This document shows positions 30,507 to 45,861 of a DNA stretch of 64,000 nucleotides, in pieces. Every line of letters begins with the position of its first letter. Position 1 is the first letter of the stretch. Location of the stretch: positions 806,001-870,000 of the forward strand of contig BPKJ01000001.1 of assembly GCA_026005075.1 (NCBI GenBank), written 5' to 3'. Below the pieces are notes generated by a model. The model was not told the origin of the DNA. It saw nothing but the letters and a program-made list of their open reading frames with translations, and did not search any database. The stretch comes from Lysobacteraceae bacterium. Lineage in GTDB: Bacteria > Pseudomonadota > Gammaproteobacteria > Xanthomonadales > Xanthomonadaceae. The translations under genes and the position numbers were made by a program.

Positions 30507-31850
30507 ATGAGCCGCGGCGACACCATTGCGGCCATCGCCACCGGCCGGGTTCCGGCCGGCGTGGGCATCGTGCGCATTTCCGGCCCGGAGGCCCCCGCCA
30601 TCGCCGCCACCCTGCTCGGGCGTCGCCCCCGCCCGCGGCACGCCCACCTGCTCCGGCTCGTCGATGCCGAGGGCGGTCTGATCGATCAGGGGCTCCTGCT
30701 CGCCTTCCCGGCGCCGCACTCGTTCACCGGCGAGGACGTGGTCGAGCTGCAGCTGCACGGCAGCCCGGTGGTGCTGGACCTCGCGCTGGCGCGGGTCTGC
30801 GCCCTTGGCGCCCGCCACGCAAGACCCGGCGAGTTCACCGAACGCGCCTTTCTCAACGGCAAGATCGACCTCGCCCAGGCCGAGGCGGTGGCCGACCTGA
30901 TCGCGGCCGGCTCCGAGGCCCAGGCACGTGCCGCGGCGCGCTCGTTGCAGGGCGTGTTCTCGCGCAAGGTGGAAGCGCTGGTCGAGGGCCTGACCCGCCT
31001 CCGCGTCCACGTCGAGGCAGCGATCGACTTTCCCGAGGAGGAGATCGACCACCTCGCCGATCCCGTGCTGCGCCAGGCCCTGGACGGCCTCGATGCCGAG
31101 CTCGCCGCGCTGCTCGCGGAAAGCCGCCGCGGAGCCCGTCTGAACCGCGGCCAGCAGGTGCTGATCCTCGGGCCACCCAACGCGGGCAAGAGTTCCCTGC
31201 TCAATCTCCTTGCCGGCTGCGAGCGGGCCATCGTCACCCCCACCCCGGGCACCACCCGCGACCTGCTGCACCAGGACATCCACCTCGACGGCCTGACCCT
31301 GACCCTGGTCGACACCGCCGGGCTGCGCGCCGAAAGCACCGACGCGATCGAACTCGAAGGCATGCGCCGCGCCCGCGCCCAGCGCGATCTCGCCGACCTG
31401 CTGCTGCTGGTGATCCCCGACGGCGACGAGACGGCCCTGGCGGAACTGCTGGCCGAGCTGGACCCCGGGCGGCCGGTCCTCGTGGTCCACAACAAGATCG
31501 ATCTCAGCGGCGGCCGCGCCGGCCTGCGCCACCGCGAGGGAAAGCGTTGGCACCTCGGCCTGTGCGCGCGCAGCGGCGACGGTCTGGACGCGCTGCGCCA
31601 GGCGCTGGCCGAGCAGCTCCTTGGCGGTGCCGAGCCGGCGGCCTTCACCGCTCGCGAGCGCCATGTCCAGGCCCTGCAACGTGCCGGCGACTGCCTGCAG
31701 CGCGCCAGCAGCCTGCTCGCCGCCGGGCAGGGCGAACTGCTGGCCGAGGAACTGCGCCACGCCCAGACCGCACTGGGCGAGATCACCGGCGCCGTCGACG
31801 CCGACACCCTGCTCGGGCGGATCTTCTCCGCCTTCTGCATCGGCAAGTAG
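30507..31850 (+). CDS. mnmE: tRNA modification GTPase MnmE
   Basis: MSRGDTIAAIATGRVPAGVGIVRISGPEAPAIAA...PPNAGKSSLLNLLAGCERAIVTPTPGTTRDLLHQ...LLGRIFSAFCIGK. Confidence 0.98.
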   Translation: MSRGDTIAAIATGRVPAGVGIVRISGPEAPAIAATLLGRRPRPRHAHLLRLVDAEGGLIDQGLLLAFPAPHSFTGEDVVELQLHGSPVVLDLALARVCALGARHARPGEFTERAFLNGKIDLAQAEAVADLIAAGSEAQARAAARSLQGVFSRKVEALVEGLTRLRVHVEAAIDFPEEEIDHLADPVLRQALDGLDAELAALLAESRRGARLNRGQQVLILGPPNAGKSSLLNLLAGCERAIVTPTPGTTRDLLHQDIHLDGLTLTLVDTAGLRAESTDAIELEGMRRARAQRDLADLLLLVIPDGDETALAELLAELDPGRPVLVVHNKIDLSGGRAGLRHREGKRWHLGLCARSGDGLDALRQALAEQLLGGAEPAAFTARERHVQALQRAGDCLQRASSLLAAGQGELLAEELRHAQTALGEITGAVDADTLLGRIFSAFCIGK

Positions 31851-32400
31851 TGGCCTCTGCCGCAACCGCCGCTCGCGCCGCGGGCCGGGGCCGCACAGCA
31901 TGCCGAACCTGCAATCCGCCTCGGCTCGGTGGCAGGCCGCGGCCGGCGAGGGCGGCCGGCCTACCACGCGCCCGACAAGCCCCATGGGCCTGAAGCAACC
32001 GGCCCGGCTTGGGCCGGGCGGGTGCGGCATGGCGCGCCGAGCTCCGGATGCGCCTGGGCAGCAGGGCCGGACCACGCGGTGACGGGGAATCCCGGGGCAG
32101 CAGGATCGCCGGCCACGGGGCGGGTTTGCAAAACATCGCAAGCTTGCAGACCTGCGCGAGGGGCGCGGCTTCACTACACTTTTCGACGGGGGCAGTTCGA
32201 GGCGCTGGAGTTCGGGGTGTTGCCCGCCAGCGCCGGCATCCCGGGGGCAAGCCGAGTGGAGATCTGGGCGACGCGCGCGGCGCGCCGTCCTGCCGCGGGT
32301 GTTGCCGGCCGTGATCCTGCGACCCCAGAACGCGGGTCGCGCGGAAACGCGGCGACGCGCGGCGCAACCCAACCCAGTTCAATCAGGAAGCAACCACCGA

Positions 32401-33368
32401 TGATCAAGACCCTTTCCTTCAGTCTTCTGGCGCTTGCCACGAGCGCGGCCCTGGCCGGCGAGGTGGCGATCCTGCCCGACGACGAGGCGGCCCTTCTGGC
32501 GGCGGAGGCCAAGGCGGCCGCAGGCATGGCGCCGAAGGAGATCAACCAGTCCTGCGGCCTGGTGGCGCCGCTGCCGACCACGCCCAGCGGTCCGACCTGG
32601 TCGGCCGAGGTGAACGACGTGTTCTTCGGCATGCAGAACGCCAAGTTCCGGATGACCGCCTGGCGCAAGGCCTGTCCGGACGGCGATCACCAGCTGATGC
32701 TGACCATCGAGCCCGGTCCGGGTGGGACCAACCTGCCGGATCTGTTCACGGTCCAGCAGAACGGGCGCAACTACAACACCTTCCTGGTCCGCGATGCCGC
32801 GGGCGCCCATGCGCCGCCGGGCATCACCAGCAAGGCGACCTACCTGCTGCGCTTCCTTGGCGACCAGTCCGCGACCTTCGACGACGATGCGGCGCTGACC
32901 ATCACCTACCTTGGGCTGAGCACCAGCGGCCGGGCGCGGATCGAGGTGCCGCCGGCGCCGAGCTCCACCACCCCGCCGCCGGAGCCCAGCGTGGCGCTGA
33001 GCGATCTGCTGGACGGTGCCTGGTTCAACCCCGGCCATACCTCGCAGGGGCTGCTTCTGGACGTGGCCCGCCAGGACGGGGTGGTCTCCGGGGCCTGGTT
33101 CACCGCGGATCCGCAGACCGGCGTGCGCGAGTGGTTCACCTTCCTGGGTCCGATCGAGGGTTCGGCGGCGCAGGTGGAGATCTACCGGACCGACGGGGTG
33201 CGGTTCCTGCAGAACGCGCCGACGACCGACGTCGTGGTGGGACAGGGCACGATCCGCTTCACGTCCTGCACCGAGGCGAGCTTCGAGTTCAGCCTGCAGA
33301 CGCCGAGTGCCACCGGCACCATCGCCCTGTCCAAGCTCACCCGAGCGGACGCTTCCTGCGGGCAGTGA
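32401..33368 (+). CDS. Secreted hypothetical protein with C-terminal 'GAWFNPGHTSQGLLLDV' domain
   Basis: MIKTLSFSLLALATSAALAGEVAILPDDEAALLAAEAKAAAGMAPKEINQSCG...LSDLLDGAWFNPGHTSQGLLLDVARQDGVVSGAWFTADPQTGVREWFTFLGP; signal peptide. Start trimmed from ORF 31929..33368. Confidence 0.7.
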
Positions 33369-33369
33369 G

Positions 33370-34020
33370 ATGAGCCTGGTCCTGGTGCTGTGCTTCGTGG
33401 GGGTGTCGCTGGCGCAAACCGCCGTGCTCACCGCCATCCGGCCCCAGGCGAGGCAGGTGCTGCGGCGGCTTCGGTCGCCGCGGCTCCTGCTGCGGGCGGG
33501 GTGCCTGCTCGCTGGCGTGTTGGCCGTGGCGCTGCCTCTGTTCAGCCTGGGCGGCATCTGGTCCTGGAGCTGGCTATCCCTGCTGGGGGCGGACGGCGGC
33601 AGCCTGCTGTTAGGGACGGCCCGTGCGGATGAAGCGCAGGACCATCCCATCTTTGCCGTGGCGCCCTACCTGTTTCCGCTTCTTGCCGCGGCCGCGATGC
33701 CGGTGATCTGCCTGGACGAGGAGCGACTATTCCGCCGCGGCGTGGACAGGTCGGGGCCGTTGGGGATTGCGGTGCGCTCCGTCCTGTTCGGCGTGGCGCA
33801 CATCGTGGTGGGAGCGCCGCTGGCCGCGCAGCTCGCCCTGGCCGGGCTCGGCGTCGCGTTCGCGCACGAGTACCGTCGGGCGGCGCGGGCTGGCGAGGAT
33901 CCGCTGCTGGCCTCGGCCACGCTGCATTGCGCCTACAACTATGCCGTGATCGCCACCGTGGCCGGCGTGGCGGCGTGGGCGCAGATTGCCTCCAAGTTGG
34001 GCAACGCCGCGGCCGGCTGA
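33370..34020 (+). CDS. CPBP (CAAX/Abi, Rce1-like) intramembrane protease family protein
   Basis: Motif 1 CLDEERLFRRG (EExxxR), motif 2 FGVAH (FxxxH), motif 3 HCAYN (HxxxN) in a multi-TM protein. Confidence 0.8.
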   Translation: MSLVLVLCFVGVSLAQTAVLTAIRPQARQVLRRLRSPRLLLRAGCLLAGVLAVALPLFSLGGIWSWSWLSLLGADGGSLLLGTARADEAQDHPIFAVAPYLFPLLAAAAMPVICLDEERLFRRGVDRSGPLGIAVRSVLFGVAHIVVGAPLAAQLALAGLGVAFAHEYRRAARAGEDPLLASATLHCAYNYAVIATVAGVAAWAQIASKLGNAAAG

Positions 34021-34062
34021 TACTGAGAACCACAAGGCTTCATCGAGGAGAGGAGAACGACC

Positions 34063-35079
34063 ATGCGGGTAGCGAGCAGGCTCATGGCCATGCTGGTGCT
34101 TCTGCCGGCGCTGGCGCAGGCGGGGGTGCTGGATCGGCTGGTGCTCAACAAGGACAAGCAACTGCAGATGGAGCGGGAGGCGGCGGCGGCGCGGGCGCGG
34201 ATCAATGCCGTCGCCTGGCCGTTGCTGACCCACCCGAACCTGCTTGCGCAGTGCGAGGGGGGTCGGCCGGCCTACGGCTTCCGGCACCGTGGGACCGAGG
34301 GGTACGAGCTGGAGCGCAAGCAGGATCAGGATCTCGAGGCCATGGGCTGGGTGCCGCGCCAGGTCCTCGAGGTCTATCCGGGCTCGCCAGCGGAGGCGGC
34401 GGGGCTTCAAGTCGGCGACGTGATCGTGGGCTTCGACGGTCGCCGGATCCGCAAGAACAGCTACAAGGGCGACAATCGGATCACCGAGCTGCTCGCGGAG
34501 GCGCGCGAGGAGGGCCGTGCCATCGAGCTCGAGGTGGAGCGTTCGGGTGCCAGGCAGGTGCTGCGCATCGAGCCGGTCAGGGTCTGCGATTTCGAGGCCA
34601 TCCTGGGCGGCACGGCGGGGATCGCCGGTGCGCACGACCTGCCGCGCAAGCTGCGTGCCCGGGCGATCATGGTGGACATCGGTCTGTACCGTCTGGTGGC
34701 GGAGGACGAGGCGCTGCTGCAGGCGGTGATTGTCCACGAGCTGGCGCATCAGTTCCTGGACCATTACAAGGTGCGAGGCATGGCGGGCACGGCGGCGCGT
34801 GTCACCGGCACGGCGATGGAGTATGCGGGCATGGGCGGTACGCCAGGTCTGCTGCTCAAGCTGGGCACGCGCGTTGCGTTCAAGGCCGGCGAGGAGCGTG
34901 AGGCCGACCTCAAGGCGCTGGAGCTGATGCGGTCCCTGGATCTGAACCCGGAGGTCTACGTGGCCTTCGTGCACCGCCTTGCCGAGGCCAGGCCGGATCT
35001 GGTGGCCAGCGGGGTGGGCGCGCATCCGGTGAACGAGGAGCGGCTTGCCGCGCTGCGTGCGGGGGGAGGCCAGGGATGA
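34063..35079 (+). CDS. M48-family metalloprotease with PDZ domain
   Basis: Signal peptide; PDZ YPGSPAEAAGLQVGDVIVGFDGRRIRKNS; zinc motif VIVHELAHQFLDHY; EREADLKALELM third ligand; strong RBS AGGAGAGGAG. Confidence 0.9.
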   Translation: MRVASRLMAMLVLLPALAQAGVLDRLVLNKDKQLQMEREAAAARARINAVAWPLLTHPNLLAQCEGGRPAYGFRHRGTEGYELERKQDQDLEAMGWVPRQVLEVYPGSPAEAAGLQVGDVIVGFDGRRIRKNSYKGDNRITELLAEAREEGRAIELEVERSGARQVLRIEPVRVCDFEAILGGTAGIAGAHDLPRKLRARAIMVDIGLYRLVAEDEALLQAVIVHELAHQFLDHYKVRGMAGTAARVTGTAMEYAGMGGTPGLLLKLGTRVAFKAGEEREADLKALELMRSLDLNPEVYVAFVHRLAEARPDLVASGVGAHPVNEERLAALRAGGGQG

Positions 35080-35240
35080 GCGACGGCATCGCCGTGCTCG
35101 AGGAGCTGCGCGATGGGCGCTTCCAGGGCCATCCCCTGCACTGGTACTCGACCAAGCCCAGCATCGCCGAGCAGATGGGCCTGACCCGCCTCGCGCTGCG
35201 CGTGCTGGAAAGCCTCTCGACGCCGAGGATCGAGGGATGA
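35076..35240 (+). CDS. Hypothetical 54-aa protein, start overlaps M48 stop
   Basis: MSDGIAVLEELRDGRFQGHPLHWYSTKPSIAEQMGLTRLALRVLESLSTPRIEG; ATGA overlaps both upstream and downstream. Confidence 0.6.
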   Translation: MSDGIAVLEELRDGRFQGHPLHWYSTKPSIAEQMGLTRLALRVLESLSTPRIEG

Positions 35241-35662
35241 CCCGCAAGCGTCGCGTGCATGTGCCCGCGGCGGAGCTGGCCCGTCTTGGCTATTGCGAGA
35301 CCAAGCTGGTCCTGGACCGCAGGCATGGCCAGCGGACCACCCGGGCGCAACGGGAGGCCCAGCTTCGGGGCGATCGCGAGCACACCCAGTACGCGGCCCT
35401 GGTCGAGCGGCACCACAACCTGCCCGACCGGAGGTGCTTCATTGCGAGCTGCGTGTACGGACCGGACGACCCGCGTACCGAGGCGCTCCGGGCGTGGCGG
35501 GACCAGGTCGCGTCGAAAATCTGGTTAGGGCGTCTTGCGGTGGCGTTCTACTATCGCCTCAGCCCCGGCGTGGTGGCTCGGATCGAGCACCGGCCGTGGC
35601 TGCGGTCAGTCGTCAGAGGCATGACCGATCTGGTTCGACGAGCAATGAGGGTGGGGCCATGA
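35237..35662 (+). CDS. CFI-box-CTERM-like protein
   Basis: MTRKRRVHVPAAELARLGYCETKLVLDRRHGQRTTRAQREAQLRGDREHTQYA + CFIASCVYGPDDPRTEALRAWRDQVASKIWLGRLAVAFYYRLSPGVVARIEHRPWLRSVVRGMTDLVRR; C-terminus matches the remembered CFIATAAYG...LRRFRD...GR..V..YY..SP pattern. Confidence 0.75.
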   Translation: MTRKRRVHVPAAELARLGYCETKLVLDRRHGQRTTRAQREAQLRGDREHTQYAALVERHHNLPDRRCFIASCVYGPDDPRTEALRAWRDQVASKIWLGRLAVAFYYRLSPGVVARIEHRPWLRSVVRGMTDLVRRAMRVGP

Positions 35663-36270
35663 GCTACAGCCCAAAGGTGTTGAGCATTCCGATTCGGGAC
35701 ATGCCCACCGCATTCATTCTGTCCTACATGGACGTGCTGCGCTTCGAGGCGCCAGGCCTGGAGGAGGTCTTCCATGACCGCCGTCTGCTGCGTGGCAGGC
35801 CCTCGGTCGACTCCATGGGCAGCCTGCTGCATGCCATCGCCATCCGCATGGGCTGGATCCGGCGTGAGTTTCGCCGCATGGGCAACGAGGCCCTGGCCAC
35901 GCAGGACGACATCGACGCCATCCGCGAGGACATCACCCAATATGCCAGCCGGCCGCGGGAGGCGGCGCTGGTCGGGTACCTGGCGGCCTACGCGGAGATG
36001 GCGGGGATGGTGGCGGTCGCCAAGCAGTGCGGGCATGGGCTCCTTGGCCAGCTGCAGCGGGTGCGCGATCTGGCCGACAAGCGCTATAAGGGCGTCATCG
36101 GGCATCACGCCCAGACCGTGCAGGCGCTCCTGGCGGGAACCCCCGAGCTGGCCCGCCGCGGGTTTCCGCTGGCGACCCGCGTGGCCCTGGACCCCGATGA
36201 CCCGGATCGGGAGCCTGAGCTGCTCCTGAGCTACCGAACCTCCAGGCTGGAGGCTCCGGTATGGCCCTGA
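35659..36270 (+). CDS. Hypothetical protein (203 aa), no recognised domain
   Basis: MSYSPKVLSIPIRDMPTAFILSYMDVLRFEAPGLEEVFHDRRLLRGRPSVDSMGSLLHAIAIRMGW...; ATGA overlap with previous gene. Confidence 0.7.
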   Translation: MSYSPKVLSIPIRDMPTAFILSYMDVLRFEAPGLEEVFHDRRLLRGRPSVDSMGSLLHAIAIRMGWIRREFRRMGNEALATQDDIDAIREDITQYASRPREAALVGYLAAYAEMAGMVAVAKQCGHGLLGQLQRVRDLADKRYKGVIGHHAQTVQALLAGTPELARRGFPLATRVALDPDDPDREPELLLSYRTSRLEAPVWP

Positions 36271-36389
36271 GCGCCCTGGGGGCGCTCGTCATCCTGGGCC
36301 TGCTCCTGTGCTTGGTCTACTACTTCGCGTGGGAGATCACGCGGCCCTTGCGCAGGGCGCGCTACGACCTGCTGGTGCGCGCCTCCTAG
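36261..36389 (+). CDS. Hypothetical 42-aa single-TM peptide
   Basis: MALSALGALVILGLLLCLVYYFAWEITRPLRRARYDLLVRAS; start overlaps upstream stop by 10 nt; below the ORF-track length cut-off. Confidence 0.5.
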   Translation: MALSALGALVILGLLLCLVYYFAWEITRPLRRARYDLLVRAS

Positions 36390-36434
36390 GCGTCTGCCTC
36401 AGGGCCGCTGGGCTGGCGCCCGGCATGGCAAGGG

Positions 36435-37605
36435 TCAGGCCGAGATGGCGAGGCGCTCCTGGTGGTAGAGGCGGGCGGCGAGGGCCCAGAGCAGGGCGCA
36501 CAAGGCGAGCGCGCTGCCGAGATAGGTCGCCCACTCCAGCATCAGGACCGTCTCGCCGCGGACCAGGCGGATGATGAGCTGGTTCTGGGCAAGGAAGGGC
36601 ACGGCGAACTGCCAGAGCTGGTCCTTGATCGGGTGGACGACGAGCACGATGGTCGGCAGCAGCGGCAGCAGCATCAGCACGCTCATGTAGCTCTGTGCCT
36701 CCTTCACCGACTTGGCGCTGGCCGAGATCAGGGTGAGCAGGCAGGTGCCGAGGAGCACCATGGGGGTCAAAACCACCAGCACGCCAAGGGCGGCGAGGAG
36801 GTCGAGTTCACCGCCCAGCTTGCCGCCGCCGTAGGCGAAGGCGAGCTTGAGCGCGACCACCAGCAGCAGCAGGCTGAGCAGCCCGAACAGGGTCGAGGCG
36901 AGGATCTTGCCGCTCATGATCGCCTCGCGGGAGGCGGGGGTGGCGAGCAGCGGCTCGATGGACTGCCGCTCGCGTTCGCCGGCGGTGGCGTCGATCACGA
37001 TCGGGGCGCCGCCGAGGAAGGCGCTGAGGATCAGCAGGTAGGGCAGCATGAGGGCGAGCGTTTGCCCGCTTCGTGCTTCCGGGGTGGCGAGATCGCGCTG
37101 GGTGACCAGCACCGCCTCGTCGAGTTCGGTGTCGATGCCGCGTGCGAGCAGGCGCAGCTTGCCGGCGGTGGCCGAGTACGCGCGCAGCGCCCGGCGCACC
37201 CGCTCGAGGGGGATCGAGGTGTCGCGCCGGGTGGAATCGAACACCAGTTCGACCTCGGCCGGCTCGCTGCGCCGCCACTGCTCGGCAAAGCCCTCGGGAA
37301 TGCGCAGGGCGACGTCGTGGTCCTGAGCGCGGATGGCGGCGTCGAGATCCTCCGGCGGCGGCAGGACCTCGATGTTGAAGGAGGCGAGGTAGCGGACCAG
37401 GTTGGGCGCATGTTCCGCGCCCGCCACCGGCAGCTCGAGCGTGCTCTCCATCTGCGTGGTGACGCGCTTTTCGGCCAGTCGGCCGACACCGAGCAGCAGG
37501 ACCGGGACGAGGATCGGGCCCATCAGCAGAGCCGAGCATCACCGTCTTGCGGTCGCGGAAGAGGTCGGTCAGCTCCTTCTGAACCACCGCGATCAGGGTC
37601 TTCAT
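36435..37605 (-). CDS. natB: ABC-2 type permease (NatB-like); frame break near 37525
   Basis: N-term MKTLIAVVQKELTDLFRDRKTVMLGS in ORF 36808..37605; remainder MGPILVPVLLLGVGRLAEKRVTTQMES...GAPIVIDATAGERERQSIEPLLATPASREAIMSGK in ORF 36435..37523. Confidence 0.82.
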
Positions 37606-38350: not shown

Positions 38351-39851
38351 TCAGGGCTCCCATCCGTAAGGCCCCGCGAAGGGGGGCAAGGCCGCGAGGC
38401 GGTCGAGGCAGGCCACGTCCAGGGCGGAAGGCTCCGGCTTTTCGAGGAATCGCGCCAGCAGCTTGGGCATGCAGCCGAGCCCGATCACGTTGTGACCCTG
38501 GCCCGGGAGCACCAGATGCCGGGCGTTGGGGAGCGCGGCGGCCACCTCCTCGCCGTAGCGCGGCGGGGTGACCGGATCGAGTTCGCCAGAGAGCAGCAGC
38601 ACCGGCATCTCGCCGCGGAGCGGCTCGCGGAAGTCGGCAGGACGCCGGCCGCGCGGCCAGACCGCGCACTGCGCGCGGGTGAACTCGATCAGCACGTTGC
38701 CGAGCACGCTGTCGGTCTGGCCCGGATCGGGGCGCAGCTCGTCCGCGTCCTCGGTGCAGGTCACCGACAGCTGCATGCCGTGGTAGATCTGCTCCGACAG
38801 GCCGGTTGCGAGCAGCTCGGCCTGCGCCAGCATGGCCTCGAAGCGGCCCTGGGCGGCCTCGTGCAGCAGGAACGGGAGCAGGCTGGCGGTCTGCGGAGAG
38901 TAGGCGTACAGCCGCAGCAGCATGGCCAGATGCCCGAAGCCGGGCGTTCCTCCTTCCACTCGCCGGAGCGCGCGGCGCGGAAGCGGACCGGCGCGGCGGT
39001 GCCCGCGCGCAGCGTGGCGGCGACGGCGTCGAGCTGCGCGCGCGGATCGCCGAGCTGCTGCGCGCAGCCGGGGTCCTTGCGGCAACGCTCGAAGTGGGCG
39101 TCGAGCGCGGCCTCGAGGTTGGCGGCGTGCTCGTTGCCCAGGACCAGGGTGTTCGGCACCACCGAATCCAGCACCACCGCACGGGTCGACTCGGGGTGGC
39201 GCTTGCGAACTGCTGGGCGACCCGGGTGCCGTAGGAGATGCCGACGAGGTTGATCCTGGACACGCCGAGCGCCCGGCGCACCTCCTCGAGGTCCTCGACG
39301 TGCTGGAGGGTGCCGTACTGGGTGAGGTCGGCTTCCGCGGCCAGCGCCTCCGCGCAGCGTCTTGCGAAGTCGCGCGCGGTGTCGAGGTCCTCGCGGTCGG
39401 GCTCGGTGAAGGCAGGACGGCCCTGCGCGTCGCGACACAGCAGCGGCCGCGAACCGCCGGTGCCGCGGGCATCGACGAGGATCACGTGCCGCGAGCGCCG
39501 CACGTCGGCGAAGGCGGCATGGACCAGCGGGTAGCTTTCGCTGGCCGCCTGCCCCGGCCCGCCGGCGAGCATGAACACGGGGTCCGGCGCGGCCTGCCCG
39601 TCGACCGGGATCCAGGCCACGTGCAGGCGGATCCGACGCCCCTCGGGCCGCTCGCGGTTCTCGGCCACCTCGAGGCTTGCGCACTGGGCCTCGACCGCGA
39701 GCGACCGCCCCGGTGCCTTGAGGGTGCAGGGCGTGAAGGCGAGGCTGCCGAAGCTGCGCGTGGCCGGCGGTTCGCCGGCCAGCGCTGCGCCGGCGAGGAG
39801 CAGGGCGACGAGGGGCAAGGTTCGGCAGGCACTCATGGGCAGGGCATCCAT
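38351..39851 (-). CDS. Secreted alpha/beta hydrolase (TAP-like) with two frame breaks
   Basis: Three minus frames join: ...DPVFMLAGGPGQAASESYPLVHAAFADVRRSRHVILVDARGTGGSRPL...INLVGISYGTRVAQQFA | KRHPESTRAVVLDSVVPNTLVLGNEHAANLEAALDAHFERC | TPGFGHLAMLLRLYAYSPQTASLLPFLLHEAAQG...MPVLLLSGELDPVTPPRYGEEVAAALPNARHLVLPGQGHNVI. Confidence 0.8.
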
Positions 39852-43847: not shown

Positions 43848-43976
43848 CCTGCGGCGCCATGGCGGTGGCGATGCGGCGACGCCGATCGCCGGGACAGGCA
43901 AGCAAGCAGGCGTTTGCGGCATCCTGTGCGACGACCGTGCGCAGGGGAGCCTGCGCACACGCGGAGCAGATCCGAG

Positions 43977-45861
43977 ATGAACGAGCACACCTTCGACGTG
44001 ATCGTGGTCGGCGGCGGCCATGCCGGCACCGAGGCCGCGCTGGCCAGCGCCCGCGCCGGTGCGCGCACGCTGCTGCTGACCCACAACATCGAGACCATCG
44101 GCGCGATGAGCTGCAATCCCGCCATCGGCGGCATCGGCAAGGGGCACCTCGTGCGTGAGATCGATGCCCTCGGCGGGGTCATGGCGCGGGCCGCGGACCG
44201 GGCCGGGATCCAGTGGCGTCGCCTCAACGCCAGCAAGGGGCCAGCGGTGCGGGCCACGCGCTGCCAGGCCGACCGGGCCCTGTACCGGGCGGCGATCCGT
44301 CATGCGATCGAGCATCAGCCCGGGCTGACCGTGTTCCAGGCCGCGGTGGACGACCTGTGCATCGAGCAGGATGCCGTGCGCGGCGTGCGCACCCAGCTCG
44401 GGCTGCGTTTCGACGCGCCCTGCGTGGTGCTGACCGCGGGCACCTTCCTGGCCGGCAAGGTGCACGTGGGCGCGACCACCTTCGCCGCGGGCAGGGCCGG
44501 CGATCCGCCGGCGACGACCCTTGCCATGCGCCTGCGCGAGGGACCGTTCCGGGTCGAACGGCTGAAGACCGGCACCCCGCCCAGGATCGACGGCCGCAGC
44601 CTCGACTTCAGCCAGATGGAGGAACAGCCGGGCGACGATCCCCCTCCGGTGTTCTCGTTCCTCGGCTCGCCCGCGGACCATCCGCGGCAGGTCAGTTGCT
44701 GGATCACCCATACCACCGAGCGCACCCACGCGATCATCCGCGCCGCGCTCGACCGCTCGCCCCTGTACACCGGCCAGATCGAGGGCATCGGGCCGCGCTA
44801 CTGCCCCTCGATCGAGGACAAGGTGGTGCGTTTCGCCGACAAGCCCAGCCATCAGGTGTTCGTCGAGCCCGAGGGGCTGGACGTGGTCGAGATCTACCCC
44901 AACGGGATCTCCACCTCGCTGCCCTTCGACGTGCAGCTGGAGATGGTGCGCAGCATCCGCGGCTTCGAGCGCGCCCACATCACCCGGCCCGGCTACGCCA
45001 TCGAGTACGACTTCTTCGATCCGCGCGGCCTGCGGCCGACGCTGGAGACCCGCGCGGTGGCCGGGCTGTTCTTCGCCGGCCAGATCAACGGCACCACGGG
45101 CTACGAGGAGGCCGCGGCGCAGGGCCTGATCGCCGGGCTCAACGCCGCGCGCAGGGCGCTCGGACAGGAGGGCTGGAGTCCGCGCCGCGACCAGGCCTAC
45201 ATCGGGGTCCTGATCGACGATCTGATCACCCACGGCACGCGCGAGCCCTACCGCATGTTCACGTCCCGTGCCGAGTACCGCCTGCAACTGCGCGAGGACA
45301 ATGCCGACGCGAGGCTGACCCCGATCGGGCGCGAGCTGGGCCTGGTGGACGACCGCCGCTGGGCCCGCTTCGAGGCCAAGCAGGCCCGGGTCGCCGCCGA
45401 GACCGCGCGGCTCGGCGGCGATCTGGCTCGGTCCCGGCAACGCCCTGGGCCGCGCGCTGGCCGCCACCCACGGCATCCAGCTCAGCCGCGAGGTCAGCGC
45501 GCTCGACCTGCTCCGGCGGCCGCCTTTGGACTACGCGGCCCTGATGCAGGTCGAGGGGCTGGGGCCGGGGCTGGACGATGCCGAGGCGGTGGAGCAGATC
45601 GAGGTCGCCACCCGCTACGCCGGCTACCTGCAGCGCCAGCAGGAGGAGATCGAGCGCCAGCGCCGCAACGAGACGACGCCGATCCCCGAGGACTTCGACT
45701 TCTCCAGCGTGCGCGGCCTGTCCGCGGAGGTCCTGCAGCGCTGGCAGCAGGCTCGCCCGCAGACCGTGGGGCAGGCGATGCGCATTCCCGGCGTGACGCC
45801 GGCCGCGGTCTCGCTGCTGCTGGTCCACCTCAAGCGTCGGCAGGAGCGCACTGCCGCCTGA
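43977..45861 (+). CDS. mnmG: tRNA uridine-5-carboxymethylaminomethyl modification enzyme MnmG; frame break near 45420
   Basis: [67 protein letters not shown]... continuing after frame change in the reading of ORF 45526..45861 ([44 protein letters not shown]...[59 protein letters not shown]). Confidence 0.95.

Follow-up and report, generated by a model that had tools for sequence, protein, structure and literature searches.

What kind of unit is the tightly packed run of seven genes that lies downstream of mnmE in the window (the whole 64,000-nt stretch of DNA that was analysed), and do its two proteases and its small proteins belong to one system? The first-pass annotation of the locus had taken the run for a functionally linked set in which the proteases were paired with small orphan proteins. 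The answer that we favor, with good confidence, is that the cassette is largely a decayed and rearranged chromosomal copy of a conjugative-plasmid module, inserted where gene content varies in the mnmE-natB interval, and that the intact module encodes a proposed two-chain nuclease of the Cas4/EXO5 type.

The gene run and its chromosomal surroundings

All seven ORFs were found on the plus strand where the first-pass annotation had placed them, except that the first gene, which encodes a secreted protein with a signal peptide (32400..33368), starts at 32400 and not at 32401; the 1-nt gap between it and the gene for a CPBP (Rce1-like) intramembrane protease (33370..34020) was confirmed. There follow the genes for a secreted PDZ-M48 metalloprotease (34063..35079), a 54-aa protein, p54 (35076..35240), a protein composed of an N-domain and a CFI box (35237..35662), a 203-aa protein predicted to be helical, orf203 (35659..36270), and a 42-aa membrane peptide, tm42 (36261..36389). 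The stop/start overlaps of these last five genes also held at each junction, with a 4-nt ATGA overlap at M48/p54, p54/CFI and CFI/orf203 and a 10-nt overlap at orf203/tm42. For every one of the seven ORFs the true frame had the top codon score of six (0.61 for p54, 0.49 for tm42), and Shine-Dalgarno-like sequences precede both small ORFs. Family searches returned nothing convincing for the secreted protein, p54, orf203 or tm42, and PADLOC models gave no anti-phage defence match for any of the seven proteins. Rfam and tRNA searches at the locus were without a match, no convincing border repeats were seen there, and no promoter-like site was found.

The placement of the run between mnmE, which ends at 31850, and mnmG holds only loosely. 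The cassette is followed by a convergent gene for a natB-like ABC permease (36435-37523, minus strand), whereas mnmG, which has an apparent frameshift, lies ~7.6 kb past the cassette at ~43976-45861. Apparent frameshifts were observed at 37523-37605, 38351-39851 and ~45450 of the window, in the natB-like permease gene, an alpha/beta-hydrolase-like gene and mnmG; these appear to be assembly base errors or pseudogenes.

The yidC-mnmE ... natB-natA frame is conserved in sister genomes, where the mnmE-natB gap contained one secreted beta-helix-like gene (G177), a histidine kinase and an RCC1-like gene (G209) or a TonB-like gene (G126). Since these genes are unrelated to the cassette, the gap is a variable spot. 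No second cassette was found in 150 other order-level genomes, queried with orf203, M48 and the CFI model, or in 298 other family-level genomes, queried with the joined p54-CFI-orf203 sequence, and the expected conserved co-occurrence of the seven genes was thus not borne out.

Counterparts of the cassette genes on conjugative plasmids

Four of the seven cassette genes align with a module of conjugative plasmids. On plasmids of Rhodanobacter, Dyella and Xanthomonas the gene order is mobI, S49 peptidase, CFI, a 199-223-aa helical protein and a PD-(D/E)XK nuclease with an N-terminal membrane segment, and on the Dyella plasmids a CPBP-type protein is encoded downstream of the module nuclease. Other plasmids carry M48, one or two small genes, CFI and a Cas4-like gene, adjoining traG/traH. 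We take the intact module to comprise a peptidase (S49 or M48), the CFI-box protein, sometimes the helical protein, and a Cas4-like PD-(D/E)XK nuclease that is membrane-anchored in most cases. The linkage that had been proposed for the cassette therefore stands in part: the grouping of a peptidase with a CFI-box protein recurs, with a CPBP-type protein in Dyella, but it does so on plasmids and not as a seven-gene system. Relatives of the CFI protein that share its N-domain were found in three genomes of the same family, and matches to it in 75 plasmid records. A collection scan with a set of closely related CFI sequences gave 22 loci. On Lysobacterales plasmids the S49 peptidase gene adjoins mobI (L053, L054, L060, L061, L062), and related S49 proteins occurred in 2969 plasmid records. 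A Piscinibacter plasmid has an unannotated nuclease ORF (L058:6425-6976) directly 3' of its CFI gene.

The 54-aa ORF aligned with the last 51-54 residues of the plasmid S49 peptidases, with an identical end and an identical ATGA overlap into CFI. It scored 70-78 against five plasmid S49 proteins (controls: mean 20, sd 3.9), and tblastn gave an E of ~1e-6. This is strong evidence that p54 corresponds to the C terminus of an S49 peptidase of the plasmid type. It is like the S49 (SppA-like) peptidase of MobI-type plasmids in this tail, in its position before CFI and in the overlap, but it is without the catalytic part (~275 aa), which none of the six reading frames in 31700-36700 encodes; p54 is therefore not a peptidase.

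At the other end of the run, tm42 occupies the nuclease slot of the plasmid modules. Compared with 242 hydrophobic controls (mean 22, maximum 36), it scored 37 with the Dyella nuclease head and 36 with the Xanthomonas head, and its similarity to several further heads was weak, even to one that is a near relative of the best head. Slot and alignment score provide moderate evidence that tm42 is probably the truncated N-terminal membrane head of a Cas4-like nuclease, an identity that is probable and not proven because the other heads fail to beat the hydrophobic controls. The nuclease core (~150 aa) was likewise missing from every frame of that interval, 31700-36700. This bears on an assembly artefact, in which base errors or misjoins would have split longer genes into the small ORFs. 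Although the apparent frameshifts in natB, the nearby hydrolase gene and mnmG lend it some plausibility, we consider it very unlikely: single-base errors cannot remove the missing S49 and nuclease parts from six frames, and the genome contained no plasmid-type nuclease, MobI or ParM and no further copy of a plasmid-type module.

In the reading that we favor, the peptidase has been reduced to its 54-aa tail and the nuclease, probably, to its 42-aa membrane head, with the CFI-box protein and the CPBP protease as survivors and the PDZ-M48 protease in the peptidase slot. Of the three small proteins first regarded as orphans, those of 54 and 42 aa are then best read as stumps, and orf203 is still an orphan. 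The same two ORFs could instead have been captured from a plasmid and kept as functional minimal proteins that act in the envelope alongside CFI, orf203 and both proteases, as a streamlined domesticated operon. The intact overlaps, the complete protease motifs and the coding-like codon usage and Shine-Dalgarno-like sequences of p54 and tm42 all fit such an operon; however, good codon usage is compatible with retained genes and with young remnants alike, no second genome has the cassette, and both ORFs resemble termini of larger proteins whose catalytic parts are missing. We judge domestication to be unlikely, though it deserves some weight.

The proteases themselves differ in their relation to the plasmid module. 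By profile the CPBP protein is borderline (PF02517, 20.7-22.5 bits; cut-off 22.4), yet its motifs are complete, with EExxxR (EERLFR), FxxxH (FGVAH) and HxxxN (HCAYN) all present in the translation. It matched the Dyella plasmid protein (L054:7908-8537) with a shuffle z of 20 and a protein of a further locus (L081) with an E of 2.6e-5. The M48 protein has HELAH (HEXXH) and a PDZ domain (PF01435, 30 bits; PF17820, 40 bits) and is like the secreted PDZ-M48 metalloproteases of Gammaproteobacteria in domain order and in HEXXH. Those relatives, unlike the window protein, are mostly lipoproteins and, where checked, do not adjoin CFI genes. They are chromosomal, occurring in 12 further genomes among 274 of the class, and the neighborhoods that were checked were without module genes; a scan of GTDB contigs with M48 gave no match. 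We conclude that M48 and CFI have separate origins, and the PDZ-M48 gene may have been placed in the peptidase slot by rearrangement.

The 203-aa protein takes the position that the 199-223-aa helical protein holds in the plasmid modules and shows no significant sequence similarity to it (z 0.7-2.4). Searches with these helical counterparts gave no link to orf203, and no plasmid or viral relative of orf203 was found. Two candidates were discarded: an order-level match that was weak, single and antisense to a persulfide dioxygenase-like ORF, and a family-level match inside a peptidase-like ORF. A structure model of orf203 was of low confidence and unusable. For the secreted protein (32400..33368) no plasmid counterpart and no similarity to the module proteins was found, and it probably lies outside the plasmid-derived module.

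The first-pass annotation had pointed out that CPBP and M48 are the two families behind CAAX-type proteolysis in eukaryotes and had suggested a hitherto undescribed system for peptide processing, envelope quality control or toxin immunity. Two complete sets of protease motifs within one tight run are what gives this suggestion its appeal. We nevertheless regard it as extremely improbable, as the set is unconserved, M48 and CFI are of separate origin, no defence family was matched and the tiny ORFs are accounted for as truncation remnants. Paired CAAX-type proteolysis fares no better, since on the closest plasmids the counterpart in the protease slot is an S49 peptidase. A prenylated CAAX substrate is not evident among the seven proteins.

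Nuclease-like motifs in the CFI-box protein and its plasmid neighbor

The window CFI-box protein is a clear member of NF041770 (63.6 bits; curated cut-off 40), but it differs from the usual form, in which the box ends larger proteins, by its special N-domain. Across the class the CFI box mostly terminates larger proteins (L116-L143), and in a class survey of 369 genomes full-length copies of the form with this N-domain occurred in just two, the window genome and G767. A Cys-Glu pair and a GxxxH motif are invariant in the N-domain across relatives; in the window protein these are C20, E21 and G45xxxH49. The N-domain appears to resemble the N-terminal Fe-S/His segment of EXO5/Dna2/Cas4. Single N-domains gave weak Pfam matches, and three of the five families matched were Dna2, Cas4 and Exo5. 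The N-domain profile alone had no significant match in the PDB, and a structure model reached a pTM of 0.40, with an empty fold search against the PDB.

In Cas4 and AddB, one N-terminal and three C-terminal cysteines bind an Fe-S cluster (PMC3466216). Of the Cas4/PDDEXK_1 models, the plasmid Cas4-like nucleases matched only the part that starts at about position 30-110. The module nuclease has D, (D/E)xK and a C-terminal C-x2-C-x5-C and is without a conserved N-terminal cysteine. The exact C-x2-C-x5-C triad was present in 27 of 29 CFI-nuclease pairs, a set that includes several near-identical plasmids and, because most loci entered the survey through their resemblance to CFI, does not give an unbiased rate of co-occurrence. 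Loci from Pseudomonas and IncC plasmids, which were found via the nuclease, served as an independent check. With a profile built from joined CFI-nuclease pairs, the PDB search matched EXO5 with an E of 1.6e-5 and an alignment that crosses the junction, compared with 0.0065 for the nuclease part alone; none of 300 column permutations of the N-part reached the true joined-profile score. In a Pfam scan of the joined sequences the matches stopped short of the N-domain, and the link between N-domain and EXO5 is to be read as statistical rather than structural.

On five Pseudomonas megaplasmids a stand-alone N-domain that lacks the CFI box is encoded divergently from the gene for a nuclease with the triad (L103:5634-5852, L144:2116-2334, L145:2147-2368, L146:2116-2328 and, unannotated, L148 ~2107-2427). 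On pQBR55, which has a triad-bearing nuclease, no N-domain was found within 2.5 kb. Three IncC Cas4-like proteins (L102:5050-5571, L149:2417-2938, L150:2417-2938) end in CSCGG; they have lost the triad, and no N-domain partner was found for them. The best other nuclease match of the window genome was a CRISPR-type Cas4-Cas1 fusion on another contig (L113, C3:364253-364597), with four cysteines on one chain in the usual layout.

The intact plasmid pair has the same elements as Cas4, AddB and EXO5 in the same order, namely an N-terminal Cys and GxxxH, D, (D/E)xK and three C-terminal cysteines, but in the pair they are divided between two genes, and the full Cas4/EXO5 set is seen only when both proteins are taken together. 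With its motifs on two genes, the pair is better described as working like Cas4/EXO5 than as a standard member. The CFI-box N-domain would donate a histidine to the active site and a fourth cysteine to the Fe-S cluster, and the nuclease chain would bring D, (D/E)xK and C-x2-C-x5-C, so that one nuclease is made from two polypeptides. We think it reasonably likely that conjugative plasmids of many Proteobacteria encode such a two-polypeptide, often membrane-tethered, Cas4/EXO5-type Fe-S nuclease, to which a CFI-box protein or a stand-alone N-domain supplies the Fe-S Cys and active-site His in trans, for DNA processing in transfer or establishment. The division of the motifs and the joined match to EXO5 are observations, and the physical assembly of the two chains, Fe-S binding, nuclease activity and a role in plasmid transfer or establishment are predictions. 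Unlike Cas4 and EXO5, the window locus has no nuclease core; as a relic of the module it would keep the CFI half intact with the nuclease half missing, and presumably yields no working nuclease.

Conjugative plasmids of Burkholderiales have been reported before to carry a large Cas4 clade, in a paper that gives four cysteines in all cases and does not speak of a split (PMC5704561). The nuclease side is therefore not new. The partition over two genes appears to be, and our literature search found no description of a split or two-subunit Cas4 and nothing on the CFI-box.

Significance for plasmid nucleases

For the locus itself, a false lead is removed, as the cassette is read mainly as a plasmid relic and not as a new protease system. 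The N-terminal domain of the CFI-box protein, a protein otherwise undescribed, gains a concrete and testable role. If the two-chain proposal is true, an Fe-S nuclease whose cluster and active site are common to two chains would be unusual, the range of Cas4-type nucleases on conjugative plasmids would be extended, and the missing N-terminal cysteine of the plasmid Cas4-like proteins would be explained.
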